A stretch of 45,822 nucleotides of DNA from a virus. This document shows positions 3,305 to 42,356 of this stretch, piece by piece. Made by a program: the position numbers and the translations under genes. The stretch is from IMG/VR virus record IMGVR_UViG_3300025132_000072, positions 1 to 45,822 of that record, one strand, 5' to 3'. The notes below the pieces were generated by a model, which was not told the DNA's origin, did not search any database, and worked only from the letters and a program-made list of their open reading frames with translations. Every line of letters starts with the position of its first letter. The stretch's first letter is position 1.

Positions 3305-3313
3305 GGTGAAATT

Positions 3314-4471: not shown

Positions 4472-7400
4472 CAGTTTATGTGATGCGTAAGGGTACTACA
4501 ATAAATCCCACTGTAGTCGCTACTCTAGCAAACGCAGGGAACAATGTCAATTTTGACTGTCCTACGAATCCTATTATCCATGACACGGCTACTTGCACTG
4601 ATACTCATAGAATGTTCACTTACATTTCTACTGATGATTCTAATAATGACACCTTTATTCAGCAATTACAAGGTTCAGATTCTGCCGGTACTCAATATTC
4701 TAATTTAGAAAATACTGAGGGGTATAAGATAAAGTGCTATGATAGTATTACGGGAGAAGGTATTCGTCTAAATTCCACTGCTAGTGACCACAACTACTAT
4801 GTTTTGATAAACTCGGATAATGGATTGACTCACCACTTTGCTAGAATTACACAATTTACCACTGACGATGTTTCGGGAGATAGTTTTGAATTTGAGCCAA
4901 GACTAGGTTCTTCTATTACTAAGAACACTAAATTCATGGTGTTCAAAGGAGATGATGAAGACGAATCTACTATCGTAGCGGTAAGTAGCGGTATTCTTGC
5001 TACCGAGATTACTGCGGGTAGTACTACCTACAGAATGAATAAATCATTGCTATGTTCTAAACCCCTATTTTACTTTCACAACTCTAGGCTAGATAAGAAA
5101 AATCAACTTGACCACAATAAAAAATATTATGTCAAATATGCTTCTTCTCAAATGAGCAGTGCCACTATTAGTTCATTTACAACAAATACATTTATCACTT
5201 CTCAAGATTATGGATTCTTGATTAAAGACTATAGCAAGTTTAACATCAAAACTACACTTGTTGATAACCTAAAAACACTAGACGACCCTACTAATTCCAG
5301 CAGTTATAATAGTACCAAACAGACTTCTAATGAAGGATTGACATTAGCGAATAATGACTTCACAGATTACGATGAATCGTTTTACAATGCTAGGCGTGAC
5401 GACGACAATGTGAAATCTGCTCTCAATCTAGTTGGCCCATATCGGTATCTTCACTACGGCTATTCTCCCGAAACAGCCAATGAAGCCCCTATGGTTCTTA
5501 GCACCAATTTGAAAGAATCATATGGAGGTAGGGGGGGTTATGCGGAGGCAAAAATCGTAGACACCTCCCGAATCATGTCCTCAAAGGTAGGAGAGTTCGA
5601 GGCTTTTAGAGTTCGACAGCAACAACACAGGGGCGAGTTCTTTGAATGGTTCCCACTCAAGGCGACAGTGAAAGCGAATGTCACAGGAAATGAGTACACA
5701 TTTACTACAGAAGAAGGATATGATTTAGCAAATTTGTTATCACAATATGATGAAGTTTTGGTAGGGTCTAGAGTAGTAAGAGTTAGTACAATTGATTCTT
5801 TTAACGCTAGCGCATTTACACAAGATATTACTTTTGATGGAAACTCTAGATTGGATACAGAAAGTGCCTTTTCTGCATCTTCCTATACATTGAGCGCAGG
5901 TGATAGATTATACCGTAGGGCTTTTAGTTCATCTAAGAGCAATCTACTTACCACCTTTCCTTTCGTGGAAGGTAGAGAAAGTCAACTAAGAATAGTTTTC
6001 TTGGATAAGAACTATGCTGGACTTGAAGCAACTGTGACAGGTTCAAGCAAAGACCAAAAATATTTGACATTATCATTTTCTAATGCTAAGGTGAAAAAGC
6101 GCACTACAGTCTTTACTTCTTTAGAATATGTCTCCGGACAATATATCATTGAAGTAGAGAGATTCAATGGAGAAATAGAACAAATAGAAATAGACAAAAA
6201 TATGGGTATGAGTACCATGACTATTTCCGGTAGAGATAATTATTCAAAACTAATTTCTCCAATAGTAAATCGCAATTCTAATTTCTCCGAAGATGTAATT
6301 TATTCAACTATGAGTCCACATAACAAGTTAGAACTCGTCGGTGTTTTAGATAGTGGGAATGATTTGAATTTCAATAGTAAGACTTTTGATTTAACATCAT
6401 CAATAACGGTTAATTCTTTAGCAAATACAAAACTCTTCGTGAAATACACTAACGGAGTTGTAGCATATATCGGGGAGGGAGCCTCTAACACCACTACTAG
6501 AATCACTCTCAAAAACCTACCATTAACAGAAGCATATGGTACTTCCACACATAATGAAGTACAATTGTGGAAAGAAATAGAAACCAATTACATTCTAAAC
6601 AAGGCACTATCTTCTAACAATAAACTAACAACCTTTGCTACTAGCCTAGGAGGAAACAGTGACAAAGGACTGCTTTTCAGCAGTGGCGAAAAACTAGACG
6701 GTACTCTATTAAGTGGGACTACTACTTCTAGAACTTCCGGCGTTGATAGCAATGCTGTTGGTTTTCACATACAACACCCTACTTCGATAGGTAAAGAAGA
6801 AGCATTCCAAGCCAAACTAAGTGATGGAGGTACAAATTATGAAACCTTTGAAACAGTCAATACCTTGATTGATTTTACTGTCTTGAACACCTCTACTGTA
6901 GATGGAAAGACCACCATAGAATTAGCCCCTTATCTTCCAGTCACTTTAGGAAGAGTAGACCACAACGATTACGATACTTATGATGTGACATTAACCACAA
7001 TAGGTACTACTACAGGAAGCGATAGTGGTTTCGATATTGCTGGTAAAAAATATTTAGACCTTACCCCATCTAACACTTCTACTATTAAGGCGGTAGCAGA
7101 TGTAGGATTGCCTATTTATTTGAGTTCTGTATTTGTAGGGTATTGCACTCAAGTAGTATGTTTTAATACAGTCTCAAGCGGGGCAGATACTTGGAGAGTT
7201 TTCTTGGATAGGCCAGTGAACAATTTCAGTTCCGGAGAAACTATTTCCACATTAGGGTTCACAACTGCTGTAAATAATCAGTATTCCGGAAAAAATACTC
7301 ACAATTTGTACCTAGTAAATGGGGAACATTTGCATGGAGGTAAGATGGTGACGCTATTGAATTCTCTATATGGAGTAGAAGCGGGAGTTGACTACAGTGC

Positions 7401-10400
7401 TGATGATATGCAGAAGCCAACTTACTACAATTACATTAGGCCAACCACAGCACTATCTCACGAATTGGTCGGAACCTATATTGAAAAATATGGGGTTCCA
7501 CTTTACAAAATAAACCATATTGAGAAAGGAATTTTCAATAGAAAAACTCAAGCAATCGCCAGCGACTACCACACTACTGATGCTAGCACAGCAGAAAAGG
7601 AAGAGGTCGGTAGGGCTTCCGATGCTAATTACTATGACGGTAGCAGTTCTGTTCAATACTATGCCTCGGCTTACAAAATGAATCAAGGAAGAAGTTCTAC
7701 CGCTTTAGAAAAGATACCTAGCAGATTTAGAGAAACTGCTCACTTACATTTGCCAGTTGAAGAAAGAGGATACTTCCCCGCTAGTGGTTCACTGTTTTGG
7801 GATTATATCGTACACGAAGCAAGTCACACTAGAGATAAGGTTCTAACTTCTCACGACCCTACATTAGGTGGCAGGGTTAAATCTAACTTCTACATTAAAG
7901 ATTTCTTGGAACAACTAGACCCAAAGACTGCTAGATTATTCTTATTTGCGACTTCGGACTTATTACCATACAGTAGTTTAAGAGATGATAGTTTGTTCTA
8001 CTCTAATAGAGATTTGAAAAACTTTAGTCTATATTTGTTGAACAAACCAACCGAAGATACTACTTCCGATAAACACTCCAAGTATGGTGGTGCTGGAAAG
8101 GCAAAGAAATACCTAGACAGCGATTATGATACTGCGGCCATTCTAGAATACGATGTAGAAGATATTACCAAAATGACCACTTTTGGTTTAATGAGATTAA
8201 CCGAGGTATTGTTTGACTCAAATATGAATCAAATAAATCCGGAACATCTGCCGGACAAAAAGAAAACAATGAGAGTTTTTAATTATCACTATTATGAATT
8301 TACAGATTTAGGAGTGACCTTTAGCCTCGATGATAGTGATAATACTATAGACGCTAGTTCAGATGTGAGTTCGTCCCTAAGTGCAAATGACATTATTTGT
8401 GATAGTGATGGAAACATGATTGGGGAAGTTTCCAGTATTTCGACAACTCAAATAACTCTAAAGAATTTGTATCATGGGGATTCTACTAGAAAGGTAGTTC
8501 GTACAACAAGTTCGGGAGGATTTGCTACAGGTAATTTATTCAAGGCGGTTAAACACCAAGCCGCATTTAGTGGACACGGAGATGCACAGAATGTCAACAA
8601 ACTAGATGGTTCTATACAACCCCTCGTTGCTTTATTTCACGGTGGAAATTATTCTAGTGACGCTTTCACAGATGAGGCAGGTCAAGCATTCAATGTAGGA
8701 ACTACAAGTGCTGGACACGAAAGCCACTTGGCTTTGCCTATGGTAATCACCAACCTTACCTTTGATTCGGAACAACACAACGGACACTCTAGCCTTCTTC
8801 TTAAGCAATATAATGACCTAAGATTACACACCAATTCTCCCGCTACAGCCGCCTCTTTCTTGAAGAGCGGATTGGTGGGTATGGTCCTCGATAGATTTGA
8901 TATTTCCGGAGGAGATACTCTGTCCAGTGCTGGTACAGTAATGCCTCCAATTAAAAATGCACATCTAAGAGAGTACACTGATAGTTCATCCAAGAACTTT
9001 ACAATTATCAACTACGGCATGGCTACTAGGCCCAACCGATTTGCTACTACCAAATTAGATGATAATGGAGGTGGTGATGCCGATACTTCATCTGCTACTA
9101 CAGATGCAGAAGGAATATATTTAGGATTTAAATTGAGGGTAAAATTACCCACTAAAGAATCAACAAATCCTAGGGGGCCTTCGGGAACAACTCATTACAA
9201 ATATATTCTAAACTCTAGCACCTATCCATATTTAGACTATGTGAAGGATTTAACAGGTTGCTATTTAGCCTCGGAAGCAGGTACAGAATATGCTACAGGA
9301 ACCGCAGTAGCGCAACCTGCTATTGATGCAGATACTCAACAACATAGCATGCAGAATGTTTCTCCTACCTTTTTAGGATATGTCGTTTCCCATGAAATAG
9401 ATAGTGGAAATAGCACTAAAAGACATATTTTGATACTAGACCAAGAATTAACTGCGGGATATTACAGAGTCATGCAACCTAACGAAACCTGTACTTATGA
9501 ATATACACCTAGCAGAATTAAACTGAATACCCTATCTTCGGAATATACTAAGATGCCATATAAAGATGAAACTTATTCTGCTACTCAAGACTATCACATT
9601 AGGGTGGAATCTGCTTACGATAGAACACTAAATGGTTCCTTTGAAAATGTAGGTCACAATGAAGGAGTCTTATCCATGTATTGTGTGATAGATATGGACG
9701 GAAAACTAGCCTCCGGTACAAAGGAACATATTGTGTCTAGAAGTCCACTATTGGCCCTATACCAATTCGCTGATATGACAACTAAGAAGGCAGAAATACC
9801 TTCAACACTATGCGTCAGCGATGGTAATACTACCTTCAAAACTTCAACTGAAATAGATTGGCTAGGAACAGGAGATAGCGAAACCATAGGAAGAGGACTT
9901 ACTATTACATTTGGAGAACATAAGTTGACTAAGGGTGTGGTTTCAGTATCGGATACGATTACTATTACTACGAATAAGAACTTAAAAGGAAAGCCTATTC
10001 GTGCTGTTATAGGTTCGGGAGTCACTATTGGAGAAGAAACAGAAACCCTCATCAATAATCTCTTTGAAGAGAATGACATAGAATTCACTACTGGTTATAC
10101 CGACGACTATCCTCTAGTTGTAGCACCCAATCTAAAGGGAGTAGATTTATTCTCTGCAATCAACTACTTAATTGAAAAGAAGAATAAACAATTGATTTAT
10201 GATAATGACAAATTCTCAATCAAGGACCAAAAGGATTCAGCCTTTTCACCGAAGATAAAAATTACTGATATGAATAATGATTTACAAATTGTGAACTTTA
10301 GCCAATCCGATGTTCTCTTTGACTTCTACAATGAAGTAAGGGTCTATTCTAAGGATAAGATTGCTATTAGGAAGAATGGAAGTAGTATCCGTAAGAGAGG

Positions 10401-10938
10401 AAGAAAGGTACTAGAAGTCAACGACGATAGTTTGTCTACTCAAGAAGAAGTAGACAGTAGGGCGTATAATCTATTAAGACTACATTCCAGTTCTAACAAG
10501 AAGGTTTCTTTAGAACTAGGACATAGGAGTTTAGGACAAATAAGGCCCTCGGATATTATCGAACTTGAACTATTACAAGAAGGTATTACTTCCTCCAAAT
10601 ATGTCATTTTAGAAATGGAACATACTCAAATGGGTACTATTAAATTAGAACTTGGTAAATTCACTAAGGGCTTAACCGATAGATTTGCTGAAATCTTGAA
10701 AAATAATAAAAAGATAGAGGCAAATGTAAGAAGTGAGGCTTTCAACAATGTCCGTACTTCTAGAGATTACTTCGGAAAAATAGGTATCACTGAAAGAAAG
10801 TTAATCGTCAAGAAGAGGGCCAATGCAAGCGCAAACTCTTTCAATCTTGGGTTTGAGCAGACTCTAGGCTTCGCCCTACCTTTGGGCCTATCAACTGGTG
10901 GAAATACGCTTACGACTATACTGGAGGAAGAATTTTGA
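4468..10938 (+). CDS. Giant tail hub/tip protein (2156 aa)
   Basis: By far the largest gene. The long N-terminal and central region is beta-rich with many S/T/D/N residues. Around residue 570 is VERFNGEIEQIEIDKNMGMS and TISGRDNYSKL, and the last ~350 residues (GVDLFSAINYLIEKKNKQLI..., DFYNEVRVYSKDK..., RSLGQIRPSDIIELEL) look like the hub fold shared by gpD/gp27-type baseplate hubs and siphovirus Tal proteins: a repeated beta domain followed by a surface-binding module. It would close the tail tube and carry the host-contact apparatus. It overlaps the LamG gene by ATGA, and its stop overlaps the next gene's TTG start. No peptidoglycan-cleaving motif is visible, consistent with an archaeal host without murein. 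The hub assignment is inference. Confidence 0.5.
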   Translation: MTVYVMRKGTTINPTVVATLANAGNNVNFDCPTNPIIHDTATCTDTHRMFTYISTDDSNNDTFIQQLQGSDSAGTQYSNLENTEGYKIKCYDSITGEGIRLNSTASDHNYYVLINSDNGLTHHFARITQFTTDDVSGDSFEFEPRLGSSITKNTKFMVFKGDDEDESTIVAVSSGILATEITAGSTTYRMNKSLLCSKPLFYFHNSRLDKKNQLDHNKKYYVKYASSQMSSATISSFTTNTFITSQDYGFLIKDYSKFNIKTTLVDNLKTLDDPTNSSSYNSTKQTSNEGLTLANNDFTDYDESFYNARRDDDNVKSALNLVGPYRYLHYGYSPETANEAPMVLSTNLKESYGGRGGYAEAKIVDTSRIMSSKVGEFEAFRVRQQQHRGEFFEWFPLKATVKANVTGNEYTFTTEEGYDLANLLSQYDEVLVGSRVVRVSTIDSFNASAFTQDITFDGNSRLDTESAFSASSYTLSAGDRLYRRAFSSSKSNLLTTFPFVEGRESQLRIVFLDKNYAGLEATVTGSSKDQKYLTLSFSNAKVKKRTTVFTSLEYVSGQYIIEVERFNGEIEQIEIDKNMGMSTMTISGRDNYSKLISPIVNRNSNFSEDVIYSTMSPHNKLELVGVLDSGNDLNFNSKTFDLTSSITVNSLANTKLFVKYTNGVVAYIGEGASNTTTRITLKNLPLTEAYGTSTHNEVQLWKEIETNYILNKALSSNNKLTTFATSLGGNSDKGLLFSSGEKLDGTLLSGTTTSRTSGVDSNAVGFHIQHPTSIGKEEAFQAKLSDGGTNYETFETVNTLIDFTVLNTSTVDGKTTIELAPYLPVTLGRVDHNDYDTYDVTLTTIGTTTGSDSGFDIAGKKYLDLTPSNTSTIKAVADVGLPIYLSSVFVGYCTQVVCFNTVSSGADTWRVFLDRPVNNFSSGETISTLGFTTAVNNQYSGKNTHNLYLVNGEHLHGGKMVTLLNSLYGVEAGVDYSADDMQKPTYYNYIRPTTALSHELVGTYIEKYGVPLYKINHIEKGIFNRKTQAIASDYHTTDASTAEKEEVGRASDANYYDGSSSVQYYASAYKMNQGRSSTALEKIPSRFRETAHLHLPVEERGYFPASGSLFWDYIVHEASHTRDKVLTSHDPTLGGRVKSNFYIKDFLEQLDPKTARLFLFATSDLLPYSSLRDDSLFYSNRDLKNFSLYLLNKPTEDTTSDKHSKYGGAGKAKKYLDSDYDTAAILEYDVEDITKMTTFGLMRLTEVLFDSNMNQINPEHLPDKKKTMRVFNYHYYEFTDLGVTFSLDDSDNTIDASSDVSSSLSANDIICDSDGNMIGEVSSISTTQITLKNLYHGDSTRKVVRTTSSGGFATGNLFKAVKHQAAFSGHGDAQNVNKLDGSIQPLVALFHGGNYSSDAFTDEAGQAFNVGTTSAGHESHLALPMVITNLTFDSEQHNGHSSLLLKQYNDLRLHTNSPATAASFLKSGLVGMVLDRFDISGGDTLSSAGTVMPPIKNAHLREYTDSSSKNFTIINYGMATRPNRFATTKLDDNGGGDADTSSATTDAEGIYLGFKLRVKLPTKESTNPRGPSGTTHYKYILNSSTYPYLDYVKDLTGCYLASEAGTEYATGTAVAQPAIDADTQQHSMQNVSPTFLGYVVSHEIDSGNSTKRHILILDQELTAGYYRVMQPNETCTYEYTPSRIKLNTLSSEYTKMPYKDETYSATQDYHIRVESAYDRTLNGSFENVGHNEGVLSMYCVIDMDGKLASGTKEHIVSRSPLLALYQFADMTTKKAEIPSTLCVSDGNTTFKTSTEIDWLGTGDSETIGRGLTITFGEHKLTKGVVSVSDTITITTNKNLKGKPIRAVIGSGVTIGEETETLINNLFEENDIEFTTGYTDDYPLVVAPNLKGVDLFSAINYLIEKKNKQLIYDNDKFSIKDQKDSAFSPKIKITDMNNDLQIVNFSQSDVLFDFYNEVRVYSKDKIAIRKNGSSIRKRGRKVLEVNDDSLSTQEEVDSRAYNLLRLHSSSNKKVSLELGHRSLGQIRPSDIIELELLQEGITSSKYVILEMEHTQMGTIKLELGKFTKGLTDRFAEILKNNKKIEANVRSEAFNNVRTSRDYFGKIGITERKLIVKKRANASANSFNLGFEQTLGFALPLGLSTGGNTLTTILEEEF

Positions 10939-11306
10939 TAGTAGATTCCGTTAGAGAAAGCCTTGCCTTACACTTGAAAACCATATTCACAAAGGCTAGG
11001 GTGGGAGTGGGAGGCAATGCTACCGACCCCTCGGCAACTAATTTAGATGTACCCATCTACAACATATCCGCCTCTTCCTCTACTAGTGAAGGGAATGTCA
11101 TAGATTTCAAATTCACTCTTTTGGGTTCTTCTGTAGCAGGGTACACAATAAGAGAAATAGGTATTTTTAATAAAGCATATGAAAATGTACCGGAAACTGC
11201 AATAGCAGAATACACTGAAATGCTATCTAGAATTACATTCGATGGAATAGGGCCATTTACTTCCGGAGAAGAAATTGATTTTTACATTACCATAGAGGTT
11301 GAGTGA
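10935..11306 (+). CDS. Baseplate/tail-collar-like protein
   Basis: 123 residues. The pattern SSVAGYTIREIGIFNKAYEN is typical of phage tail-collar/baseplate proteins that carry a G..IRE.G.F motif, and the N-terminus (LALHLKTIFTKARVGVGGNA) and C-terminal strand (FTSGEEIDFYITIEVE) fit that small family. Such proteins attach fibres to the baseplate. The start is TTG 10935, supported by GGAGG at 10923-10927 with seven bases between, and by its TTGA overlap with the hub gene's stop. It lies directly before the fibre-like gene, as expected for an adaptor. Confidence 0.5.
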   Translation: MIVDSVRESLALHLKTIFTKARVGVGGNATDPSATNLDVPIYNISASSSTSEGNVIDFKFTLLGSSVAGYTIREIGIFNKAYENVPETAIAEYTEMLSRITFDGIGPFTSGEEIDFYITIEVE

Positions 11307-11307
11307 T

Positions 11308-13467
11308 ATGACAGACAGCAGAAATATAGGACAGTACAGTAGATTCCATTCTAATCCAGCAGGTAGCGGATTAGTTGATGGTGTAGATTTCCCCCACAGT
11401 GGGTTGTTTAAAGCACTATCAGTAGGGTTGCAGAACAGTTATGCTATCCTAAATGGAACTACAGCAGACGCAACTAAGAACTTTAGTATCGTACAAACAA
11501 ACTCCGGTGGAAATACTCAATTCGTAGTGAGGGCAGGTACAGTCATTAGAGATGGAAAACTAATGCCAGAAATTGCTACTGCTACTTTCACTCAAGGAAC
11601 TCCTTCTACCTTCGATGAACCTGCCTCCGGAAACGCATATTTCGTCTTAGTAGTGACTAGTGACTCTACAAATGTATTGGCCATTAGAGGAGATAAGGCC
11701 GATACTGATGTAGTGCCACAACTAACTGCGGGCGATATTCCTGTTGCTATAATCAAATTAGATGCGAGCGGTACGGTAGACGGTAGGGCTATTCAGTATT
11801 TGACTACGGCTAAGAGTGAAAATTCAATGAGCATCGGCTATGATGCTGGAAGTACTACCTACACAGAAACAAGTGCTATTACTGGAACTAGTGCGGGTTT
11901 ATTTATTTCCGGTATTGGTACAGCGACAGTAGCAAGCGATGATAAAGTCTTGATTCAAGATACTGGTTCTTCCGATGTAATCAAATCAGTCACAGCCGCT
12001 TCAATTGCCGCATTAGCCCCTCAAGGTGATATTACAGGAGTCGATTTAAGTGAAGGAGCCGGTATTGATATTGCTTCGGAAACCAATACTACAAGTGGAG
12101 CCTATTCTGCTACAATCAATTTAGATTTAACAGAAGTAATTGCATCGGATGGAGCCAATAGAGTTCTAACTTCGGATGGGGATGGTACATTAACTGGAGA
12201 GGCAAACATGTCTTTTGACGGAAGTACTCTAACTGTCACAGGTGATGCTAAAATTACAGGTAATACATTTCAATCGTACATAGACTTTGGAGATGATTTA
12301 TCAGTAGGATGGTACACTTTTGCCGTTATTGAGGGAAGAAGTGGAGGTTCTGCGAGCGGTACGGGAGGAACTCAACAAAGAGGTATTGGTACTTTTACAC
12401 TTAGAGAAGATGATAGTTCAAGGCACCAAACAGTTAAATTAACTGCTTCACATTTATTTGGGGGAGGGAATTCTAATGGCATATCAATTGAACACTGTTC
12501 TTATTTCTCTACTCTTGGCATTTCTCAATTTAGAATTAAAGAAAGCGGTACTTATGATGGTGCGGCTTTACAAGTCTACATTAACGACGCAACAAATGAT
12601 ATTGATTGCTTTTTACAGAACAACTTTCACGACGATGGTTGGATTTTAATTACCCCAGTTGCAGACGGAAGTGACCCTTCTACTGGAAGTCTTGGTCTTG
12701 GCTATAATAACGCTTATTCTACTTTCAGTGCTACGAGCACTGTTAATATGGATAGCAAAGGAATCGCTTCAAGAGGTTCTTCTTCGGGGGGTCCGTTTTT
12801 AGTCAACGGGCAGTCTACTTTTGAGGGACAAATACTACTGAAAGAAATTTCTGCCCCTTCAAATACTGGTAGTTATGGGCAAATATATGCTAAGTCCGAT
12901 GATGAATTACGATATTTAGATGGTTCCGGTGTTGATACTCCTATATTGAAAGGAGGGAAACATTCTATTTGGGTTCCTTCTTCTGCTATGACTCCAACAA
13001 CAACTGCTGGTTGTTCTGCATTAACTCAAGTTGAAATGACAGCAGGTAGGCCGGAATTACAAATATTAGATTTTGCCGCAGATGCAGACGACCACGCTCA
13101 ATTTACTGTTGCTTTCCCTAAATCATGGAACGAAGGAACAGTGACTTTTCAGCCCTTTTGGACTGTCACAGGAACAAATACAGGTACGGCAGTTTGGGAA
13201 TTAACTGGACTAAGTGCTAATGATAATTACGCCCTAAATACTGCTTATCCCGCAGTTGCCGCAACCGGAGCAAAAGCCCATAGTGGTACTTCTAATGACA
13301 TAAATGTGAGCGCAGAAAGTGGTGCATTAACAATAACAAATGCTTCTGCTGATAGCGTGACATATTTTAAACTCAACTTAAAAACGGCTTCTAGTTCTCA
13401 AACTGGGGTAGTTCGTCTTATTGGACTTAAATTATTCTATGATATTGATGCGGGGAATGACGAGTGA
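11308..13467 (+). CDS. Tail fibre/receptor-binding protein
   Basis: 719 residues starting MTDSRNIGQYSRFHSNPAGS. The first ~180 residues resemble the baseplate-attachment end of tail fibres. The middle is made of repetitive S/T/G-rich segments such as ...VLTSDGDGTLTGEANMSF and SAPSNTGSYGQIYAKSDDE, the phrase seen in trimeric fibre shafts. The C-terminal ~170 residues form a beta-rich tip (MTPTTTAGCSALTQVEM...). ATG 11308 is chosen over TTG 11299 because GAGG lies at 11295-11298, nine bases before the ATG and too close to the TTG. It likely determines host range. Its stop overlaps the next gene's GTG start. Confidence 0.6.
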   Translation: MTDSRNIGQYSRFHSNPAGSGLVDGVDFPHSGLFKALSVGLQNSYAILNGTTADATKNFSIVQTNSGGNTQFVVRAGTVIRDGKLMPEIATATFTQGTPSTFDEPASGNAYFVLVVTSDSTNVLAIRGDKADTDVVPQLTAGDIPVAIIKLDASGTVDGRAIQYLTTAKSENSMSIGYDAGSTTYTETSAITGTSAGLFISGIGTATVASDDKVLIQDTGSSDVIKSVTAASIAALAPQGDITGVDLSEGAGIDIASETNTTSGAYSATINLDLTEVIASDGANRVLTSDGDGTLTGEANMSFDGSTLTVTGDAKITGNTFQSYIDFGDDLSVGWYTFAVIEGRSGGSASGTGGTQQRGIGTFTLREDDSSRHQTVKLTASHLFGGGNSNGISIEHCSYFSTLGISQFRIKESGTYDGAALQVYINDATNDIDCFLQNNFHDDGWILITPVADGSDPSTGSLGLGYNNAYSTFSATSTVNMDSKGIASRGSSSGGPFLVNGQSTFEGQILLKEISAPSNTGSYGQIYAKSDDELRYLDGSGVDTPILKGGKHSIWVPSSAMTPTTTAGCSALTQVEMTAGRPELQILDFAADADDHAQFTVAFPKSWNEGTVTFQPFWTVTGTNTGTAVWELTGLSANDNYALNTAYPAVAATGAKAHSGTSNDINVSAESGALTITNASADSVTYFKLNLKTASSSQTGVVRLIGLKLFYDIDAGNDE

Positions 13468-13928
13468 GTTTTGGCTATGTTGTTCTTGGTTTCAATTCTT
13501 ATCCTAAGAGGGGAGAAGCCGCACCTTCTTCTCTTTTAATACAAGATGCCGCAGGTAATGATAATAGATTTACAACTACTATTGGCGGCACTGCTACAAA
13601 TGATAAAGATTTTCAAGCACCCTTAGATATTCAAGCAGGGCAAGCAATTACCTTTGGATTCTATTCCCAAGTAGTTGGTAATGTTAATTCTTGGCAGTGG
13701 TCTATTGTTAGTTTAAATGACCCCGAAGGAATAGTAGCATCTTGGAGTTCAAGCCCAAGCAGTGGTACTATTACTGGCCCTACAACTGTCAACTGGAATA
13801 ACCTAGTTGCGACGATTGCTGGCTCATTAAATCCGGGCGCTCAAGCAGACATGACTGTGAGAGTAGCCGCCACTAACAACGGCGGTACGACTACTACTAA
13901 TTACACTCTAACCCTTATGTCTCCATGA
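13464..13928 (+). CDS. Ig-like/beta-sandwich tail-associated protein
   Basis: 154 residues starting at GTG 13464, within a GTGA overlap with the fibre gene. It is entirely strand-like with a PASSL..., QAGQAITFGFYSQVVGNVNS pattern and a closing ADMTVRVAATNNGGTTTTNY strand, typical of an immunoglobulin-like or PKD-type beta sandwich. Such small domains are often displayed on tails and bind host surface sugars. Coupling to the fibre gene suggests a fibre tip or fibre chaperone. No specific family is recognised. Confidence 0.45.
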   Translation: MSFGYVVLGFNSYPKRGEAAPSSLLIQDAAGNDNRFTTTIGGTATNDKDFQAPLDIQAGQAITFGFYSQVVGNVNSWQWSIVSLNDPEGIVASWSSSPSSGTITGPTTVNWNNLVATIAGSLNPGAQADMTVRVAATNNGGTTTTNYTLTLMSP

Positions 13929-35599: not shown

Positions 35600-36193
35600 T
35601 CAATTACCTCCAAAGGGCTTTCTGTTTTTTATCATGTTGTGGTAGTGGTTTTCGGGCCACCATTCCGGTCTTCTATTCTTTTTCCAAGTGGCAAAGTCCC
35701 ACTTACCTTGTAGGTAGTAATGACGATAGGACTTGATAACAAAGTCCCAACTGTGTTTTTCTTTAGGTAGGCGGTAAATATCTGCCATAGCAATAGATAC
35801 AGGAGTTAAATCTTCTTCTTCATAAGAGAAGGTGAGACTGTCACTAATTCTTTTTTCAGTGCCATGAACTTTACCATACCTAAATGTATATTCCTTACAA
35901 AGAGCAATAGCGTGGTTGTATAGCCACATGTAATTCGCTTTGTTCTGCCTAGCCCAAATAGTACTAGGGTGATTCAACATAGCAGGTTTCATTAGATAGT
36001 TGAAATGCGATTCTTTGTGGAACTGTTTTAGTTCTCTCAAGGAAGGCTCTCTGCCGTGACATTCCCAAAACAAAAAGTAAAGGGAATTAGTATGTAGCAT
36101 TTGACAACTTTCAGTTGGCATCTTTACTACATGCTTGTCTAACATCTGTTGTGCTGATAGCACTGGGTCTTTGGTTAATGCAAATATATTCAT
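35600..36193 (-). CDS. Conserved phage-type protein of unknown function
   Basis: 197 residues: MNIFALTKDPVLSAQQMLDK, HVVKMPTESCQMLHTNSLY, ...HFNYLMKPAMLNHPSTIWAR, QNKANYMWLYNHAIALCKEY, TFRYGKVHG. The N-terminal pattern MNIF.L..DP...A....DKHV.KM..E..Q.L, a central H.NHP...W.R, NY.WL and EY..RYGK.H belong to a protein found in many marine phages whose function I cannot name with certainty. Conserved His/Lys/Glu suggest an enzyme. ATGA overlap with JAMM gene. Confidence 0.55.
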   Translation of the reverse strand: MNIFALTKDPVLSAQQMLDKHVVKMPTESCQMLHTNSLYFLFWECHGREPSLRELKQFHKESHFNYLMKPAMLNHPSTIWARQNKANYMWLYNHAIALCKEYTFRYGKVHGTEKRISDSLTFSYEEEDLTPVSIAMADIYRLPKEKHSWDFVIKSYRHYYLQGKWDFATWKKNRRPEWWPENHYHNMIKNRKPFGGN

Positions 36194-36777
36194 TCTTCTT
36201 CACTATCCCAATTCTTCTCTAGTAGCATTTCATTGATAGTAGTTTTAATTTCAGCAGTTTTGTAGGTTCTCTTAATCTGCTTTCGCTCCCACTCAAATCC
36301 ACGATAAATGTCTAATCGCTTAGGTAGTGCATTACTCCAAATACCATAGTGGCCTATGCCACCTAGCACAATAGCATTGTGCATCAAAGGTTCCCACTTA
36401 CCAACAGTATTCCAATCAGTACCACTAAAGTAAGCAGAGCCGAAAGGATGGGTGTGAATCCAGCACTTAATTGGTAGAGACATTCCAACAGGGTCAACCT
36501 TGAAGGAAACAAAACCAGCAGAACCAAAGGAAATGTGTAGGTTATCTTTACCATCTACAACAACCTGTACTTCTAATCCATTAAGAATTTCAGTAGATGC
36601 TTTCCAAATGGCATTGTGAAACTCTGTCTCGGCCCAATCTCCATTGAAACTAGGGCGAATCAAGTTCTCTATTAGGCCTTGGCAGTGTGCTTCGTGGTCT
36701 GCTTCTGCTTCACCCCAATCATGTCTATCGTCGTCTTCTCCGTGTACTCTAATGTACCAATCTCCGCTTTTACTCAT
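36190..36777 (-). CDS. JAMM/MPN+ metallopeptidase (deubiquitinase-like)
   Basis: 195 residues. CWIHTHPFGSAYFSGTDW gives H108-x-H110-P-x6-S118-x2-D121, the complete JAMM zinc motif, preceded by strands and a helix (EFHNAIWKASTEILNGLEVQ) as in the MPN fold. Such enzymes remove ubiquitin-like tags or trim precursors. The N-terminal 40 residues are acidic and may bind a partner. It is encoded in one coupled run with an E1-like enzyme, and a small ubiquitin-like protein ending GG-SL lies at 40798-41004. The start and end both form ATGA overlaps. Confidence 0.8.
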   Translation of the reverse strand: MSKSGDWYIRVHGEDDDRHDWGEAEADHEAHCQGLIENLIRPSFNGDWAETEFHNAIWKASTEILNGLEVQVVVDGKDNLHISFGSAGFVSFKVDPVGMSLPIKCWIHTHPFGSAYFSGTDWNTVGKWEPLMHNAIVLGGIGHYGIWSNALPKRLDIYRGFEWERKQIKRTYKTAEIKTTINEMLLEKNWDSEEE

Positions 36778-36938
36778 TCTTCCTCATCCTCCCAATATTC
36801 AACTATTTCAATGTCATATACTTCGGATGAAGCATAACTTTCATCATAACTCCATGCCTCGGATATTGCTTCAGCCTCACTCTCTGCCGTGACCTTAAAG
36901 GTATATTTTATCATTTTTTCAATTTCATATTCTTTCAT
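36774..36938 (-). CDS. 54-aa unknown protein
   Basis: MKEYEIEKMIKYTFKVTAES then EAEAISEAWSYDESYASSEV and an acidic end EYWEDEEE. A strand, a helix and a strand as in many tiny phage proteins (KVTAESEEEA...). Start ATG 36938 directly follows the upstream stop (TAAATG). It lies between the JAMM and ART-like genes. A beta-grasp partner role cannot be excluded but no GG tail is present. Confidence 0.45.
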   Translation of the reverse strand: MKEYEIEKMIKYTFKVTAESEAEAISEAWSYDESYASSEVYDIEIVEYWEDEEE

Positions 36939-37352
36939 TTATTCTTCCTCCATTTTTTCAAATATTTTTCTGTTGTGTTTCATCATGTTTTCGTGCTGTT
37001 TAGCATACTCTTCATTATAGAAGGGATTGTCATAAGTGACAATATCATCCCAATTTAAGTCGCTGGTAGGTATTGACCGAGTAGAAACATAAGATGCTCC
37101 TTCATCATCTACTCCCAATAACTTAGTCATTATTGGAGAATGGTCATTGCCAATCCTCATTGTATCGTCGCCTTCTTCTCTATCGAAGGATAGTACGCAG
37201 ATTTTATCCGAATACATTCTAGTGAAACTAACCCAACGAACTGCTGTTTCTTGGCTAGTGGAACAATAGATTTCTCCGAATTGAGTTTTGAGTCCAGTAG
37301 ATAAAATTGAAATTAAATTATCATAAGGTGTTGCGTGATAATAACGAATCAT
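36939..37352 (-). CDS. ADP-ribosyltransferase-fold-like protein
   Basis: 137 residues: MIRYYHATPYDNLISILSTG, LKTQFGEIYCSTSQETAVRW. The pattern Y-H-A-T-P...I...G-L, then I-Y-C-S-T-S...A, is that of the first two blocks of the PARP/Tpt1 ART fold (H6 and Y29 as NAD-binding candidates). A third acidic residue (E/Q) is not obvious. It is coupled by ATGA to the E1-like gene and could modify host or viral protein, or RNA. I cannot tell substrate or even activity. Other readings, such as an inactive ART-like binding domain, are possible. Confidence 0.45.
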   Translation of the reverse strand: MIRYYHATPYDNLISILSTGLKTQFGEIYCSTSQETAVRWVSFTRMYSDKICVLSFDREEGDDTMRIGNDHSPIMTKLLGVDDEGASYVSTRSIPTSDLNWDDIVTYDNPFYNEEYAKQHENMMKHNRKIFEKMEEE

Positions 37353-37942
37353 ACATTCACCACCATAAACGGATTAACGCTCTCTCCAGCAAACCACCGT
37401 TGCATCCACTGTGCGCCAATACTAGCAATTACAGCATGCATGAAGTGAATACCTTCTTTGCTACCATCCCAAGAATCTCCTTGACATGAGAAGGAACCAT
37501 CCGGACCTGCTAGTAGCGTATCATAAGAAGAAGGCTCCGCTTGATAAGAAACAAGTGCGGCATTCCTTCCTTGAGAACGAAGGTCTAACCATTTTACTTC
37601 TTCCACATTGGCCTTGTATAGCATTCGTCGTGTGTTCAAATTATCAACACAACAAATCACTAAGTCGTATCCTTTCAGTTGGTCGTCAACTAGGATTGGA
37701 TATTTATTTCTAATCTTTACTTGTTCATAGTTCATCTTCATAACTAATGCTTTGTTCTTTCCAACATTATCTGTTGTGAAGCGTTGGTATGTCACATTCT
37801 TTTCTTCAACAGTATCGGGGTCACTTACGGTAATCTCGTAGAGTTCCGCTTCATAACTTCCGTTCCCTGTTAGGTTGTTCAAGGTGTCAATGAGATAACT
37901 CCCAATTCCACCGGCTCCGATTATCAGTATTTTTCTTTTCAT
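37349..37942 (-). CDS. E1/ThiF-like adenylating enzyme
   Basis: 197 residues. LIIGAGGIGSYL (G9-G14), SDPDTVEEKNVTYQRF (D41, N49, Arg finger candidates), NVGKNKA (K62), YDLVICCVDNLNTRRML (D100, R105) are the E1/ThiF/MoeB motifs that bind ATP and a Ubl C-terminus. No zinc Cys pairs are seen. C153 in GPDGSFSCQGDSW is a candidate for a thioester Cys. The protein is short (~250 for ThiF/MoeB), more like phage/PRTRC-type ThiF proteins. It should activate a small GG-ended protein, of which one exists at 40798-41004. GGAGGAATAAAT precedes ATG 37942. Confidence 0.8.
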   Translation of the reverse strand: MKRKILIIGAGGIGSYLIDTLNNLTGNGSYEAELYEITVSDPDTVEEKNVTYQRFTTDNVGKNKALVMKMNYEQVKIRNKYPILVDDQLKGYDLVICCVDNLNTRRMLYKANVEEVKWLDLRSQGRNAALVSYQAEPSSYDTLLAGPDGSFSCQGDSWDGSKEGIHFMHAVIASIGAQWMQRWFAGESVNPFMVVNV

Positions 37943-37944
37943 AT

Positions 37945-38127
37945 TTATTCCTCCTTTATTTTTTCTAATCTTTCTCTAAGATAAAGACAATGTTTGGGTA
38001 AGGCGTGAACCTGTCCACTTATTCTATATCCTCTAACATAAATAGCGGGTTCTCCTTTACCTATAGTCCCAAAACATAGCCTACAATAAGTCCTGCCTGT
38101 TCCTTTCTTTACACCGAATCCAACCAC
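37945..38127 (-). CDS. 60-aa zinc-finger protein
   Basis: MVGFGVKKGTGRTYCRLCFG then TIGKGEPAIYVRGYRISGQV and HALPKHC. The C-x2-C...H-x5-HC spacing with I-x-K-G-E resembles PARP-type or phage-type single zinc fingers. GTG 38127 with AAAGGGAAT before it; it overlaps the end of the TFB gene. Probably nucleic-acid binding. Confidence 0.5.
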   Translation of the reverse strand: MVGFGVKKGTGRTYCRLCFGTIGKGEPAIYVRGYRISGQVHALPKHCLYLRERLEKIKEE

Positions 38128-38975
38128 TGTATTCCCTTTCCTTTTATTTGTTTTTTATTGGTATTGATTATTTCTAAAAGTCTCTTGACTTCACGACCAA
38201 TGGCATCATACCCAATACCACTAACCGATTCTATTTTCTTGTTCGTTATGTTCATGTTCTCCATAGTAGCCACAATAGAACAATAGGCGGCTGGAGTACT
38301 TGGCTTGATATTCTCGTTAGACTTCGAGAGTATATTATCAAAGTGAATTGATAGTTGTGAAACCTTTCCTAGATAAGAAGGGTAGTGAGTTAGTTCTTCT
38401 GCTAACAACATGGCATATTTTTCAGAAAACGGTCTGCATTCTTTTATTAGAAAGACTCCAGTATTGTTTTCTTCCTTTGCTATTTTCCTAGCCAACCTAA
38501 ACACAGACTTCTTGTTGCATTCATATTCAGCACAGACTTCTTTCAGTGTGAAGGGAAGTGACTCATTCTTCAAACAATAGTAGACTAGTGCCGCCGCCCT
38601 ATCTTCAAGAGGAGCAGTAGAGAAGGTGTGCTTTCTGTATAGTGTCAAATACAATTCTTCTACGGTAGTAAAGATTGTAGATGTTCTTGGTATTTTCAAA
38701 GACGCCATCAGTAGTCTGCACATTGAAACTCCTTTATACACTGCTTTATTTTCGATTTGAGCGAATGCTAGTGATTTGGGTTTGATGGTCTGTAGTCCCA
38801 TCTCATGTAAATTAGAAGACCAACGCTCTCTAATAATGGAACCTTGGTTGTCCTGTAGATAAGTTCCTTGTTCAAAAGGTTCGGTCACTAGAACCAAACC
38901 ACACTCTTCACAAACTAGTTCTCCTAAGACTTCATCAAATTTATTGTGCGTCGATTGGCACTCTAAGCATTTCAT
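38109..38975 (-). CDS. tfb: Transcription initiation factor B (TFB/TFIIB)
   Basis: 288 residues. Zinc ribbon CLEC...CEEC (residues 3-6 and ~24-27), a B-reader/linker with ERWSSNLHEMGLQTIKPKSL, and two cyclin repeats (LEDRAAALVYYCLKNESLPF and KPSTPAAYCSIVATMENMNI). It would recruit RNA polymerase to TATA/BRE promoters with host TBP. Viral TFB suggests that viral genes are transcribed from dedicated promoters. Start ATG 38975 has GGTGA; a GTG at 38984 is open. Stop overlaps the zinc-finger gene. Confidence 0.9.
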   Translation of the reverse strand: MKCLECQSTHNKFDEVLGELVCEECGLVLVTEPFEQGTYLQDNQGSIIRERWSSNLHEMGLQTIKPKSLAFAQIENKAVYKGVSMCRLLMASLKIPRTSTIFTTVEELYLTLYRKHTFSTAPLEDRAAALVYYCLKNESLPFTLKEVCAEYECNKKSVFRLARKIAKEENNTGVFLIKECRPFSEKYAMLLAEELTHYPSYLGKVSQLSIHFDNILSKSNENIKPSTPAAYCSIVATMENMNITNKKIESVSGIGYDAIGREVKRLLEIINTNKKQIKGKGIQWLDSV

Positions 38976-40305
38976 TTCCTTCACCTTTATATTTTAATTC
39001 AAAACTGCTACTAAATGGATTGTTCTTTATGAGTTTAGATGGTTTGTTAATTTTCTCGGAGTCCATAATCAATCTAGGTTTAGACTTCGTGACTTCGATT
39101 CCTAAAGTACTAACACGACTCATAGTCATTCTATCATTCAATAAGGAGAGAATTCTCGAAGCGAATTGGTCGCCAAGAGAAGGGTTCTTTCCTCCAGTGT
39201 TTATACAGATGCTAGCACCCCAACACATTTTCTTGTCTGTACTATTCACGGAATCGACTCTAAGCATTTGAGTACTAACTGCTTGAACTCCTATTTTTTC
39301 TCTAGTGAGATTACTCTTGGAGCCAGAGAGTAGCCAATCGGCAGATTGTCCGGAGACAATGATTCGTATTGATTCTTTGCTATCATTTCTTTTCACTCTG
39401 TCCGGATATTGAACCAGTAAATCATCGAGAAGAGTCATAGCCCTTTCTTGCACTAGTTTTTCCGAGCGGTTCTGTTCTAAGAAAGCCATCATCAATTTAG
39501 TTTCTGCTTCTGTAGGTTGCTTATTCATTAAACGAGTAAAGAGAGTTTTAGGACTAAGGAACTTCCAGTTCCCTACTTTCTTCCCATGACGATAAAAACC
39601 AATCATAGTCATTAAGTCCTTTTGAGATATTTTACCCCAAACATTTGAACTAATTTCTATTGCATAGTTATCATCGGAAATCTGCATTACTTGTAATCTA
39701 ACATTGATTGTTCGACCCTCTATCATATATTGATACGGTAGTCTAGAAGTAAGGACATATCTAATATCTTCCGGAACTAGAATAGAAGAAGTCACAATAT
39801 CCCTCAACTCTTTCCTTGAGAGAGCAGTTTCCTTCCTTTGTGTTTTAGCATCAACATCTAAAAGAATTCTAGCGAGAATAGGAGCGATATGTTTTCTAGA
39901 AGTAGTTATTCCATTGATTGAATAGGAACTACCTTTCTTAGAAATTAAAACTTCTACCTCCCTATTAGGAGATACTATGCTATTAGTACTAGAATTAAAG
40001 GTGACTACAAAAACCAATTCATCGTTTTCTGGCCATTCTGTGTATGTATTGCCGGACTCACTAATCTTATTGATGCTATAGTATTGCTTTCTATTATATG
40101 CTCCTTTTAGGATTTTGCTGAATGCTTCGGTAGTTTTCTCTAAAATAGGGTCTGCTGAATATAATACCCTAGAATCTACACGGTTTCTGTTGGGGATAAG
40201 ATGTTGAGCGTATGCAACACTCCTTCCATCCTTTTCAAAATGCACAGTGCATGTTAGTGTTCTATTGTTTTCTTGTGTGGCTATTTCAAATTGTATTGTT
40301 CTCAT
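38941..40305 (-). CDS. 455-residue-class unknown protein upstream of TFB
   Basis: About 454 residues, with alternating strands in the first ~120 (QFEIATQENNRTLTCTVHFE...) and helical segments later. A central FYRHGKKVGNWKFLSPKTLF and a C-terminal ...SIRIIVSGQSADWLLSGSKS are not recognised. It partly overlaps TFB (35 bases). ATG 40305 is preferred over GTG 40314; the latter overlaps the upstream stop as GTGA, so it remains possible. Location next to TFB suggests a role in regulation or replication. Function unknown. Confidence 0.5.
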   Translation of the reverse strand: MRTIQFEIATQENNRTLTCTVHFEKDGRSVAYAQHLIPNRNRVDSRVLYSADPILEKTTEAFSKILKGAYNRKQYYSINKISESGNTYTEWPENDELVFVVTFNSSTNSIVSPNREVEVLISKKGSSYSINGITTSRKHIAPILARILLDVDAKTQRKETALSRKELRDIVTSSILVPEDIRYVLTSRLPYQYMIEGRTINVRLQVMQISDDNYAIEISSNVWGKISQKDLMTMIGFYRHGKKVGNWKFLSPKTLFTRLMNKQPTEAETKLMMAFLEQNRSEKLVQERAMTLLDDLLVQYPDRVKRNDSKESIRIIVSGQSADWLLSGSKSNLTREKIGVQAVSTQMLRVDSVNSTDKKMCWGASICINTGGKNPSLGDQFASRILSLLNDRMTMSRVSTLGIEVTKSKPRLIMDSEKINKPSKLIKNNPFSSSFELKYKGEGNEMLRVPIDAQ

Positions 40306-40310
40306 TGTAA

Positions 40311-40469
40311 TCACATCATATATGTTTTTGATTTGTATTGTTTGAGGCAGTTTTCATGCGCCTCTAATTTCATGTCTTGTGGTGTCATTAAAGAGCCACC
40401 ACATACTCTGCATTTGGTCGCTATTGGGCGACCTCGATTGTTCTTAGTATAGTCGGGGTTTTTACTCAT
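40311..40469 (-). CDS. 52-aa C2HC zinc peptide
   Basis: MSKNPDYTKNNRGRPIATKC then RVCGGSLMTPQDMKLEAHEN and C. CRVC...HENC gives a Cys2-His-Cys finger; the first 20 residues are basic. ATG 40469 overlaps the upstream gene's end. Another member of the set of mini zinc proteins. Confidence 0.5.
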   Translation of the reverse strand: MSKNPDYTKNNRGRPIATKCRVCGGSLMTPQDMKLEAHENCLKQYKSKTYMM

Positions 40470-40752
40470 CTTCGTTCATCTCCGTATATCCAATAATAAA
40501 TCGTTTTTCGACTACCTTTCTTTCTAGGTAGGCGTGGAACCCTATGTCAACTGCGATATTGTTATTCCATAGGGCCTGTTTTAGTCTAGAGACAACCATG
40601 TAGCATTTGCCTTTATTGTCTCTTCCGCTCGTTTCTTCATAGCGGATTCTTTCGACTACTCTTCTGTAGTCGGGGTGACTCTCTTCCAAGAAATCGTCAA
40701 GAATAAGAACAGCGAGTTTCTTACACTCATCGAAGTCTCGGAAGAGAGCCAT
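40462..40752 (-). CDS. 96-aa unknown protein
   Basis: MALFRDFDECKKLAVLILDD then FLEESHPDYRRVVERIRYEE and strands (KCYMVVSRLKQALWNNNIAV, KRFIIGYTEMNEDE). Helix-helix-strand order could be a small alpha/beta fold. Directly downstream of the ubiquitin-like protein gene, so a partner is conceivable. It has no catalytic E2-type Cys motif. A 45-base gap without a gene separates it from 40798. Confidence 0.45.
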   Translation of the reverse strand: MALFRDFDECKKLAVLILDDFLEESHPDYRRVVERIRYEETSGRDNKGKCYMVVSRLKQALWNNNIAVDIGFHAYLERKVVEKRFIIGYTEMNEDE

Positions 40753-40797
40753 AGTTTCACTTTTGGGAAAGTTGTAGTTATGGGAGAGAGGACAACC

Positions 40798-41004
40798 TCA
40801 AAGAGAACCTCCGACAATAGCGGGGGTTAGGTCAACGGATTGAACAGTGTCCCAATTGATACTGTTAATTCCTTCTCGGCTAACCATTTCTCCATTGACA
40901 AAGACCCAATGTGTGGGGTGATTGTCAATCTGTTCAATGACTTCCGAAGAAGCCATCTCAACTTGCGTGTGTCCTGTTTCATTTAAAATTCGTAGTGTAA
41001 TCAT
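40798..41004 (-). CDS. Ubiquitin-like beta-grasp protein with C-terminal GG-SL
   Basis: 68 residues: strands MITLRILNET and HTQVEMA, helix SSEVIEQIDNH, strand THWVFVNGEMV, then the segment INWDTVQSVDLTPAIVGGSL. The order beta-beta-alpha-beta-beta and the ending D.V....P.I.GG match ThiS/MoaD/Ubl proteins, whose terminal GG is adenylated by an E1. Here the GG (65-66) is followed by Ser-Leu, as in precursors that must be trimmed by a peptidase. The same genome encodes an E1-like enzyme (37349-37942) and a JAMM peptidase (36190-36777). GGTGAT precedes ATG 41004. Fold and role are inference from pattern. Confidence 0.6.
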   Translation of the reverse strand: MITLRILNETGHTQVEMASSEVIEQIDNHPTHWVFVNGEMVSREGINSINWDTVQSVDLTPAIVGGSL

Positions 41005-41016
41005 ATTATCACCTTC

Positions 41017-42093
41017 TCATTTCTCCCATGTTCTACCACTATATAAGCGGTCACTTTCCCTTTCTTGTTTGGCTTGCTCTAGAGCGATAGCCCGTCCTAG
41101 TTGTAGTCTAGAGAATCTTTCTATGTCGCTGTTCTCCATGTTCAACTCTTGCGCCCTTTCGATTTGCTCCTGTGAAGGAGATTCAATAAAACGCTTGATA
41201 GTGATAATGTCATTTGCATTCAATGACATAAAAGAAGAGTTTCTATGTGCCATCACATACTGTTGTTCCAACTTCCTAATGAAATTCTTTTCAGCAGGAG
41301 ATAGGAATTCCCAATTTTGTAAATAACCTTTATCGGAAAAACCATACCATTCTAACATATCAGTAGTAATCCATTTAGTTCTTTTATCTTCTAGCGACTT
41401 TCTATAGTCAGCATATTCTTCCTCTGTAAAAGAACGACCGTTGATTGTCGCTCCTCCAACAAATCTGTAAAAGTAATCTAGGTCGGCTAACAATGACTTG
41501 TTAGGATAGCCTCTTCCGTTTATCTGCGCCCTACGATTATTAGGATGGTTCCATCTCCAAACAATAGAAGCCATGCCTTCTTTATTGGCTCTCTTTCGTA
41601 ATTTGGAACCTCTGTAATTATTAGTCACATTCAACCTTAAGTCCAATTCTCGTACTGCTGTGAACTTCTCAACAAATTCTTCACCATGTTTAGACCACCA
41701 TGCTTCATTCTTCATTCCTTCAATACGAACAGAAATCCATTCTTCAATCATAGCGTCTGTGATAAGTTCCCTATCAATTCCCTCACTCTTTTCAATCTCT
41801 TTCAAGATAAGATAGGAGTTGATATGGTCGGAACCAACAGCCATAGTAAGTCCAGTGATAGTATTACGAATAGCAAAGTGATAAACAATACTGTGTCCAC
41901 AAAGACAGTAGCCATAATCTCTAACCCATTCGGGTATTTCAGTATCATCTTCACCATTCCACCACCAACACTCACCGGTAGCCTCCCACTCTAGTTTAGC
42001 ATCATCGTAGTTATCAGCCTCGGATAAGAAGGTAAGTTCTCTCTTTAGTGCTCGGTCCCATCGACCATTACCTAGTTCTCTCTTGAACTTCAA
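41017..42093 (-). CDS. 358-aa protein with CxCGH zinc motif
   Basis: TTG 42093 is chosen (GGAGG six bases before, TTGA overlap with the previous stop); an ATG at 42099 is possible. After ~60 residues comes YGYCLCGHSIVYHFAIRN, TITGLTMAVGSDHINSYLIL. The C-x-C-G-H...N..TG....VGS...N pattern occurs in phage and archaeal proteins and probably binds zinc. The rest is helical and Trp/Glu-rich. It directly precedes the ubiquitin-like gene. Function unknown; possible target or partner of that system. Confidence 0.45.
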   Translation of the reverse strand: MKFKRELGNGRWDRALKRELTFLSEADNYDDAKLEWEATGECWWWNGEDDTEIPEWVRDYGYCLCGHSIVYHFAIRNTITGLTMAVGSDHINSYLILKEIEKSEGIDRELITDAMIEEWISVRIEGMKNEAWWSKHGEEFVEKFTAVRELDLRLNVTNNYRGSKLRKRANKEGMASIVWRWNHPNNRRAQINGRGYPNKSLLADLDYFYRFVGGATINGRSFTEEEYADYRKSLEDKRTKWITTDMLEWYGFSDKGYLQNWEFLSPAEKNFIRKLEQQYVMAHRNSSFMSLNANDIITIKRFIESPSQEQIERAQELNMENSDIERFSRLQLGRAIALEQAKQERESDRLYSGRTWEK

Positions 42094-42356
42094 GCCCATT
42101 CCTCCGTATCCATCTTCTCATTCTTTCGCTGTTCCAATAAGAATCCCGTAAGAATCTCGTCCATCTTGTCTTGTAGGTTATCAATAATACCTGCAATAAC
42201 CCGACGGTTAAGACTAATCCAAATTCTATGGTGGGTATTCAATACCACCTTTGGTTCATCGTTCTCGTTCATGCTAATTACCATAGGCGGCATGTGTTCA
42301 TTGTCAATCAATTTAAATTCTACCTGTGTTTTATTGTCTCTATTTCGTGTGTCCAT
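42090..42356 (-). CDS. 88-aa unknown protein
   Basis: MDTRNRDNKTQVEFKLIDNE, strands with MVISMNENDEPKVVLNTHHR, and helix SLNRRVIAGIIDNLQDKMDE. The central strands and helix suggest a compact fold. GAGGAATAAAA precedes the ATG at 42356. No family recognised. Confidence 0.45.
   Translation of the reverse strand: MDTRNRDNKTQVEFKLIDNEHMPPMVISMNENDEPKVVLNTHHRIWISLNRRVIAGIIDNLQDKMDEILTGFLLEQRKNEKMDTEEWA

Follow-up and report, generated by a model that had tools for sequence, protein, structure and literature searches.

Viruses are known to take up single parts of ubiquitin systems or to carry deconjugating enzymes. Gene sets that combine a ubiquitin-like protein (Ubl), an E1-type activating enzyme, a JAMM peptidase and an E2-like protein are already known in bacteria (PMC1779556), and a ubiquitin operon is known in the archaeon Caldiarchaeum subterraneum (CsUb/E1/E2/srfp/CsRpn11), where the JAMM protein CsRpn11 cuts the CsUb precursor exactly after its Gly-Gly (GG) pair (PMC6043591). 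Haloferax provides a precedent for conjugation driven by an E1 alone, with the general transcription factor TBP2 among the targets (PMC4895103), and Borg elements carry JAMM proteins with an occasional SAMP (PMC12660748). Here we analyzed a 45,822-nucleotide stretch of viral DNA (IMG/VR record IMGVR_UViG_3300025132_000072, positions 1 to 45,822; hereafter, the window), which encodes a 68-amino-acid Ubl, a ThiF-type E1 and a JAMM protease, together with two conserved proteins, P457 and P52, that are possible partners. The record was judged from its gene set to be a magrovirus, that is, a tailed virus of Poseidoniales (Marine Group II, MGII), and the host assignment comes from the magrovirus literature and from the relatives found in this analysis. 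Judging from the sequences, we consider it likely that this virus encodes a protein conjugation pathway processed by JAMM and driven by the E1. The literature searched, whose scope did not include Philosof 2017 and Prabhu 2025, contained no earlier description of a full Ubl/E1/JAMM set in a tailed archaeal virus, and neither a description nor a name for the related Ubl-E1-JAMM system that we found in Poseidoniales.

The locus resembles each of the described systems in part. As in the SAMP/UbaA/HvJAMM system of Haloferax, there is an archaeal Ubl ending in GG, a ThiF-type E1 and a JAMM enzyme (in Haloferax, a desampylase). However, the viral E1 misses the model for SAMP-activating E1s (27.6 versus 450 bits), and the zinc-binding CxxC pairs of the sulfur-type E1s ThiF, MoeB and UbaA were absent from the viral and host E1s when these were aligned with E. 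coli ThiF; the Haloferax system, in turn, is chromosomal rather than viral and has no known dedicated cysteine-domain partner. The Caldiarchaeum operon likewise has an archaeal ubiquitin precursor whose tail is cut by JAMM after GG (PMC6043591), but its E2 and RING proteins are recognizable by sequence, which is not the case in the virus. The prokaryotic E1/E2/JAB/Ubl operons of Iyer et al. 2006 (types 6a-6e, PRTRC-like and poly-Ubl), the Bil systems and type II CBASS are alike in their compact Ubl/E1/JAMM set with an invariant-cysteine protein, and in type 6e operons the Ubls also come in tandem, together with a small zinc finger. The viral set differs from all of these in that it has no E1-E2 fusion, in that its Ubl lies outside the Pfam and NCBIfam families, neither of which gave a match, and in that its carrier is a tailed archaeal virus. 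We rejected membership in PRTRC: the best NCBIfam model for the E1 was PRTRC_ThiF (3.6e-16), but the score fell below the cut-off (59.2 versus 144.75 bits), and no PRTRC partner models were matched. For type II CBASS and Bil, only the E1 part of the PADLOC E1-E2 models matched, with no separate CD-NTase search made. Lastly, lambda gpI/gpK and the Borg deSAMPylases are also cases of mobile elements with a Ubl and/or a JAMM protein, but a complete set with its own E1 has been reported for neither (PMC1779556, PMC12660748).

We counted the genes only in loci whose flanks were long enough to contain them. Loci found with the E1 as bait contained both Ubl and P457 in 51 of 51 cases where the upstream flank measured 7.5 kb or more, and JAMM in 79 of 79 cases where the downstream flank measured 3.5 kb or more. 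With the Ubl as an independent, equally flank-controlled bait, E1, JAMM and P457 were present in 73 of 73 loci. Gene order and strand were constant in all 61 loci that carried Ubl, E1 and JAMM. Records found through the polymerase gene told the same story: E1 and Ubl occurred in all nine records of at least 83 kb, and those records without one or both were fragments of 54-74 kb. The flank-controlled counts exclude chance or truncation as the source of the gene set. We concluded that the Ubl/E1/JAMM set is a core function of this virus group and not a passenger. Public metagenome-assembled genome contigs labelled Maricaulis and Altibacter (L082-L084) also carry magrovirus E1, JAMM and P457, with the Ubl in L084; these look like mis-binned viral sequence.

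The Ubl gene (40798-41004, minus strand) encodes a precursor that ends in VGG-SL, and the cut is predicted to fall after GG within its final Gly-Gly-Ser-Leu codons (40801-40812, minus strand). VGG was invariant across 64 distinct viral Ubls (46 in the first set). The residues after GG varied in sequence and numbered zero in 14, one in six and two in 44 of the 64; a fixed GG with a free tail is the pattern of a processed Ubl precursor. An AlphaFold2 model built with 39 relatives (mean pLDDT 81, pTM 0.62) had the topology beta-beta-alpha-beta-beta-(alpha)-beta, with strands at residues 2-8, 11-17, 33-36, 39-42 and 56-59, helices at 19-28 and 43-48, and a disordered GG tail (residues 64-68, pLDDT <50). 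Foldseek comparison of this model with solved structures returned mostly beta-grasp proteins among the 50 matches listed, a ubiquitin-like protein and ThiS holding ranks 1 and 2. The 68-amino-acid protein is thus predicted, from the computed model, to have a beta-grasp fold of the ubiquitin/ThiS type. Lysine was common in the viral Ubls only at residue 3, and 16 of 46 had none at all; in the Ubl of the window, neither K nor R occurs beyond R43. Because most have no lysine elsewhere, lysine-linked Ubl chains are unlikely, and single tags are more likely in the virus than lysine-linked chains of several types. The ratio dN/dS of the Ubl was about 0.1-0.2 in two pairs, well below 1.

The E1 (37349-37942, minus strand; 197 amino acids) passed the Pfam ThiF cut-off (59.3 versus 28.1 bits, E 4e-16), and 68 distinct relatives were found. 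Its residues GAGGIG, D41, N49 and R105 are conserved, and K64, D100 and C153 are invariant in these relatives. Viral and host E1s alike keep the glycine loop (GxGGxG), Asp, Asn, Lys and Asp of the ThiF ATP site, all of them invariant or nearly so. Cys153 (codon 37484-37486, minus strand), which lies in an SCQG motif, was invariant in viruses and hosts and aligned with the crossover-loop RNC cysteine of E. coli ThiF, the reference sequence of which was verified against PDB 1zud; it is predicted to be the thioester, or transfer, cysteine. A Pfam search found no rhodanese domain attached to the E1. Related E1 genes occur beside a protein of 712-741 amino acids, with no recognized Ubl or JAMM, in Methanoperedens/METP1 contigs (L085, 9998-10585; L089, 9905-10492), and protein DAC17_85 of the crAss-like Bacteroides phage DAC17 (MT074138; L395, 4653-5663) shares 28% identity with the viral E1 across 61% of its length. 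An E1 match in Acinetobacter (L098) was rejected as a relative of the system, being an ordinary ThiF/MoeB-type gene with no Ubl or JAMM neighbors.

The third component is a JAMM/MPN+ metalloprotease (36190-36777, minus strand; 195 amino acids), identified by its invariant residues and by profile matches. The catalytic motif, HTHPFGSAYFSGTD (residues 108-121; 36415-36456, minus strand), takes the form HTHP-x6-SxxD, and in 68 sequences this motif and an upstream glutamate were invariant (E69, H108, H110, S118, D121). Among solved structures, AMSH-type deubiquitinases were the best PDB matches to the JAMM profile (E 0.0017). Matches to the Pfam family Prok-JAB were obtained for 37 of 40 relatives, the best at 3.6e-5, although the protein in the window itself scored below the cut-off (16.6 versus 25 bits).

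A sequence-only reading of the window had placed these three open reading frames (ORFs) where we found them, all on the minus strand, and had proposed that they form a pathway. Its description of the components largely stood: the beta-grasp fold is supported by the model's topology and by the mostly beta-grasp matches, the C-terminal GG is invariant in the relatives, the E1/ThiF identity was confirmed above the Pfam cut-off, and the JAMM motif HxH-P-x6-SxxD proved invariant, with E69 in addition. The E1 residues that it named (GAGGIG, D41, N49 and R105) are conserved, except that the invariant lysine is K64 and not K62. The three genes also occurred together in relatives by both the E1 and the Ubl baits, in constant order and strand. 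Fold, GG and co-occurrence therefore all favor a virus-encoded Ubl/E1/JAMM pathway, and E1 and JAMM are associated in the hosts as well.

We surveyed the hosts by scanning genome contigs and 146 genomes of the order Poseidoniales. Among the 146 genomes, Ubl was found in 65, E1 in 66, JAMM in 70 and all three in 57, and the genes were associated (Fisher p 1e-22 to 1e-31). E1 and JAMM, for example, occurred together in 64 of the 72 genomes that had either (Fisher p ~1e-31). One system lies on a 2.06-Mb contig (G010), which indicates that the host copies are not all viral contaminants. The Poseidoniales chromosomal system has a homologous Ubl (E ~1e-9 to 1e-21), E1 (1e-14 to 1e-29) and JAMM (1e-12 to 1e-21, one 1e-38), and it shares the P457 cysteine domain and the SCQ motif of the E1. 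It differs in that a host ORF often holds two to four tandem Ubls, in that Ubl-E1 and E1-JAMM fusions occur and in that the cysteine-domain protein carries a fused zinc finger, whereas the virus has a separate E1 clade and a single, lysine-poor Ubl. Many host Ubl ORFs consisted of such tandem repeats, and 63 of 80 distinct repeats ended in GG. Fusions joined two Ubls to the E1 in three loci (L277, L278, L283) and the E1 to JAMM in five (L281, L282, L289, L290, L292). The fusions and tandem precursors resemble poly-ubiquitin and link Ubl, E1 and JAMM as members of a single pathway. In the E1 tree, the viral E1s formed one clade (support 99/98) beside a host clade (95/95). Because the two are sister groups, gene transfer between virus and host is old; the tree gives no direction. 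Several further features of the host loci were observed. The JAMM gene of one host contig (L280, G107:C56, 3599-4102) matched the viral family at E 1e-38, versus 1e-12 to 1e-21 elsewhere, next to a host-like E1, a pattern of possible virus-host gene exchange. Tandem poly-Ubl ORFs stood several times beside replication-factor-C-like genes (L230-L266, L275-L294). Most host E1-JAMM operons had a protein of ~77-100 amino acids after JAMM (L277, L278, L281-L283, L286-L290, L294), of which no viral copy was obvious.

P457 (38941-40314, minus strand), the possible fourth partner, has a C-terminal cysteine domain, was present in every complete locus and has homologs in the hosts. Its Cys370 (codon 39205-39207, minus strand), in an ICI[DN] motif, was invariant both in 36 viral sequences and in an alignment of 33 viral and host sequences; across viral P457 and the host operon proteins, the joint alignment kept C, GD and D invariant. 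With a profile made from the host operon proteins alone, the viral ORFs that matched at E<0.1 were all P457; there were 143 of them, the best at 4e-6. The host counterpart is encoded upstream of the Ubl, with a CxxC/CxxC finger fused at its N-terminus and the invariant-cysteine domain at its C-terminus. Since no histidine was invariant in the joint virus and host alignment, P457 does not appear to be a cysteine protease. In its structural model, Cys370 follows a strand (361-369) and precedes a helix (380-392), within a run of beta strands followed by helices, as in E2s. UbcH5c had the highest Foldseek probability (0.44) among the 50 solved structures listed for P457, but this match was insignificant (E 0.34, TM 0.37), and a Foldseek search against viral models returned only three relatives, all without names. 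Comparison by hhalign with yeast Ubc4, whose sequence was checked against PDB, stayed at noise level, although the two aligned at the ICxD motif. P52 (40311-40469, minus strand) is a 52-amino-acid zinc-finger-like protein of the form CxxC...HxxC; its gene overlaps the start of P457 by 4 nt, and its residues C20, C23, H38 and C41 were invariant in 52 sequences. The sequence-only reading had stated that no E2 was visible. This may be wrong, in that P457 has a cysteine domain common to the host Ubl operons, but it holds at the sequence level, where Pfam, PDB profiles and hhalign gave no support and where we rejected an E2 assignment. On its model and conservation, P457 is a candidate E2.

From the genes, their catalytic residues, the GG with its tail, the linkage and the host system, all read from sequence, and from the computed beta-grasp fold, we infer activation, transfer through P457, conjugation and targets as follows. 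JAMM would cut the two-residue Ser-Leu tail of the Ubl and so expose Gly-Gly. The E1 would adenylate this GG with ATP and then hold the Ubl on Cys153 as a thioester. The Ubl would pass to a target lysine, probably by way of Cys370 of P457 with P52 as a helper, or from the E1 itself; JAMM could also take the Ubl off its targets again. That an order of tailed archaeal viruses carries this cascade in full (Ubl, E1, a new E2-like P457 with P52, and JAMM) as part of its core, akin to the host poly-Ubl system, seems to us an evenly balanced proposition. Several observations weigh against conjugation. The Foldseek matches of the Ubl were individually weak (best E 0.05, TM 0.38-0.54), and it is the topology and the consistency of the matches that support the fold assignment. 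The arginine usual in the NxxRQ motif of E1s is replaced by Tyr or His in viral and host E1s, and P457 had no E2 match in Pfam or PDB profile searches. Trimming is not universally required, since in 14 of the 64 viral Ubls no residue follows GG, yet JAMM is always present. Lastly, ThiS-type carriers likewise end in GG and are paired with ThiF and JAMM proteins.

The last point bears on the alternative that survives best, namely that the Ubl is a sulfur carrier of the ThiS/MoaD/Urm1/SAMP type, whose GG end would become a thiocarboxylate and supply sulfur to a metabolite or for tRNA thiolation; JAMM would then either expose the GG or free the product. Among the best solved-structure matches of the Ubl were indeed several ThiS proteins (22-26% identity), the E1 is of the ThiF type and the window carries three tRNAs. 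Carriers of the QbsE/QbsD and HcyS/HcyD types have a short tail and a JAMM protein, and the viral tail of one or two residues with JAMM resembles them. However, neither rhodanese nor PF01171 (the TtuA/Ncs6/TilS family) was found in 13 related virus records, and both were found in a host control genome; in addition, the E1 itself has no rhodanese domain, the cysteine-domain partner and the zinc finger are conserved, and in the hosts the related proteins are made as tandem poly-Ubl precursors, which are known from Ubls that are conjugated. Because of the host precursors and the 13 records, sulfur transfer is less likely than tagging, and we regard it as unlikely; of the "tagging or sulfur-transfer pathway" that the sequence-only reading had left open, the tagging half is favored. 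Archaeal SAMPs are described as serving both roles (PMC6043591), which would fit a sulfur carrier.

We give still less weight to the possibility that the viral genes act only in counter-defense, as decoys with no productive viral tagging; they would divert the host Ubl system, strip it or poison it, JAMM for instance taking off host tags. A homologous system is present in the hosts, bacterial systems of this type have an anti-phage role (Hor et al. 2024, as cited in PMC12660748), and the many putative deSAMPylases of Borg elements have been read as countering host tagging (PMC12660748). Yet all active-site residues of the E1 and the GG of the Ubl are invariant in the viruses, which in every case have inherited the complete set, whereas a decoy would need neither an intact activating enzyme nor a modifier of its own. 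This alternative is improbable. A role in virion or tail assembly, as for lambda gpI (Ubl) and gpK (JAMM-NlpC), is scarcely credible and was rejected on place and strand. Lambdoid tail clusters do hold Ubl and JAMM pairs (PMC1779556), but the Ubl, E1 and JAMM genes lie opposite the structural genes (48-13928), where their neighbors are replication, TFB and chaperonin genes. In addition, no NlpC domain was matched, a full E1 is present and the same set occurs on host chromosomes.

The conjugation genes belong to a co-directional run, P360-Ubl-P96-P52-P457-TFB-ORF60-E1-ORF137-ORF54-JAMM (36190-42099, minus strand), in which gaps between neighbors range from -44 to +45 nt. Between P457 and E1 lies a TFB homolog (38109-38984, minus strand; Pfam Zn_Ribbon_TF, 6e-8) whose position is conserved in the viruses; it is a neighbor gene with a possible role in the Ubl system. 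By eye, TFB-like genes also lie near the Ubl systems of several hosts (L281, L282, L288-L290, L293), as in the viral run, a possible association that recalls the TBP2 target in Haloferax. The 137-amino-acid ORF between E1 and JAMM (36939-37352, minus strand) matches phrog_38345 (2.4e-9), and its N-terminus reads like an ADP-ribosyltransferase/KptA-type fold. P360 (41017-42099, minus strand) is a conserved 360-amino-acid protein that matches no family and has an invariant CxCGH...YHF...GSDH pattern; its gene lies directly upstream of the Ubl in the window, and it is also upstream in most of the related loci whose sequence extends to this point. Across the window, the magrovirus-type genes include a chaperonin (Pfam Cpn60) and this TFB, along with a family B polymerase, RFC and a PCNA-like protein read from the ORF list; a 72-amino-acid GroES-like gene follows the chaperonin (by eye). 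Structural genes run rightward on the plus strand and replication genes lie on the minus strand, the magrovirus gene set and strand layout used for comparison being those of PMC10768690.

All parts of the proposed system are small soluble proteins, which makes the idea directly testable. The apparently undescribed tandem (poly-)Ubl system of Poseidoniales bears on the origin of ubiquitin signaling and on archaeal antiviral biology. All long records examined from this globally abundant group of ocean viruses contain a modifier, its activator and its remover; if the conjugation pathway is real, protein tagging would be part of their normal life cycle. Virus and host would then each operate their own version of one tagging pathway.

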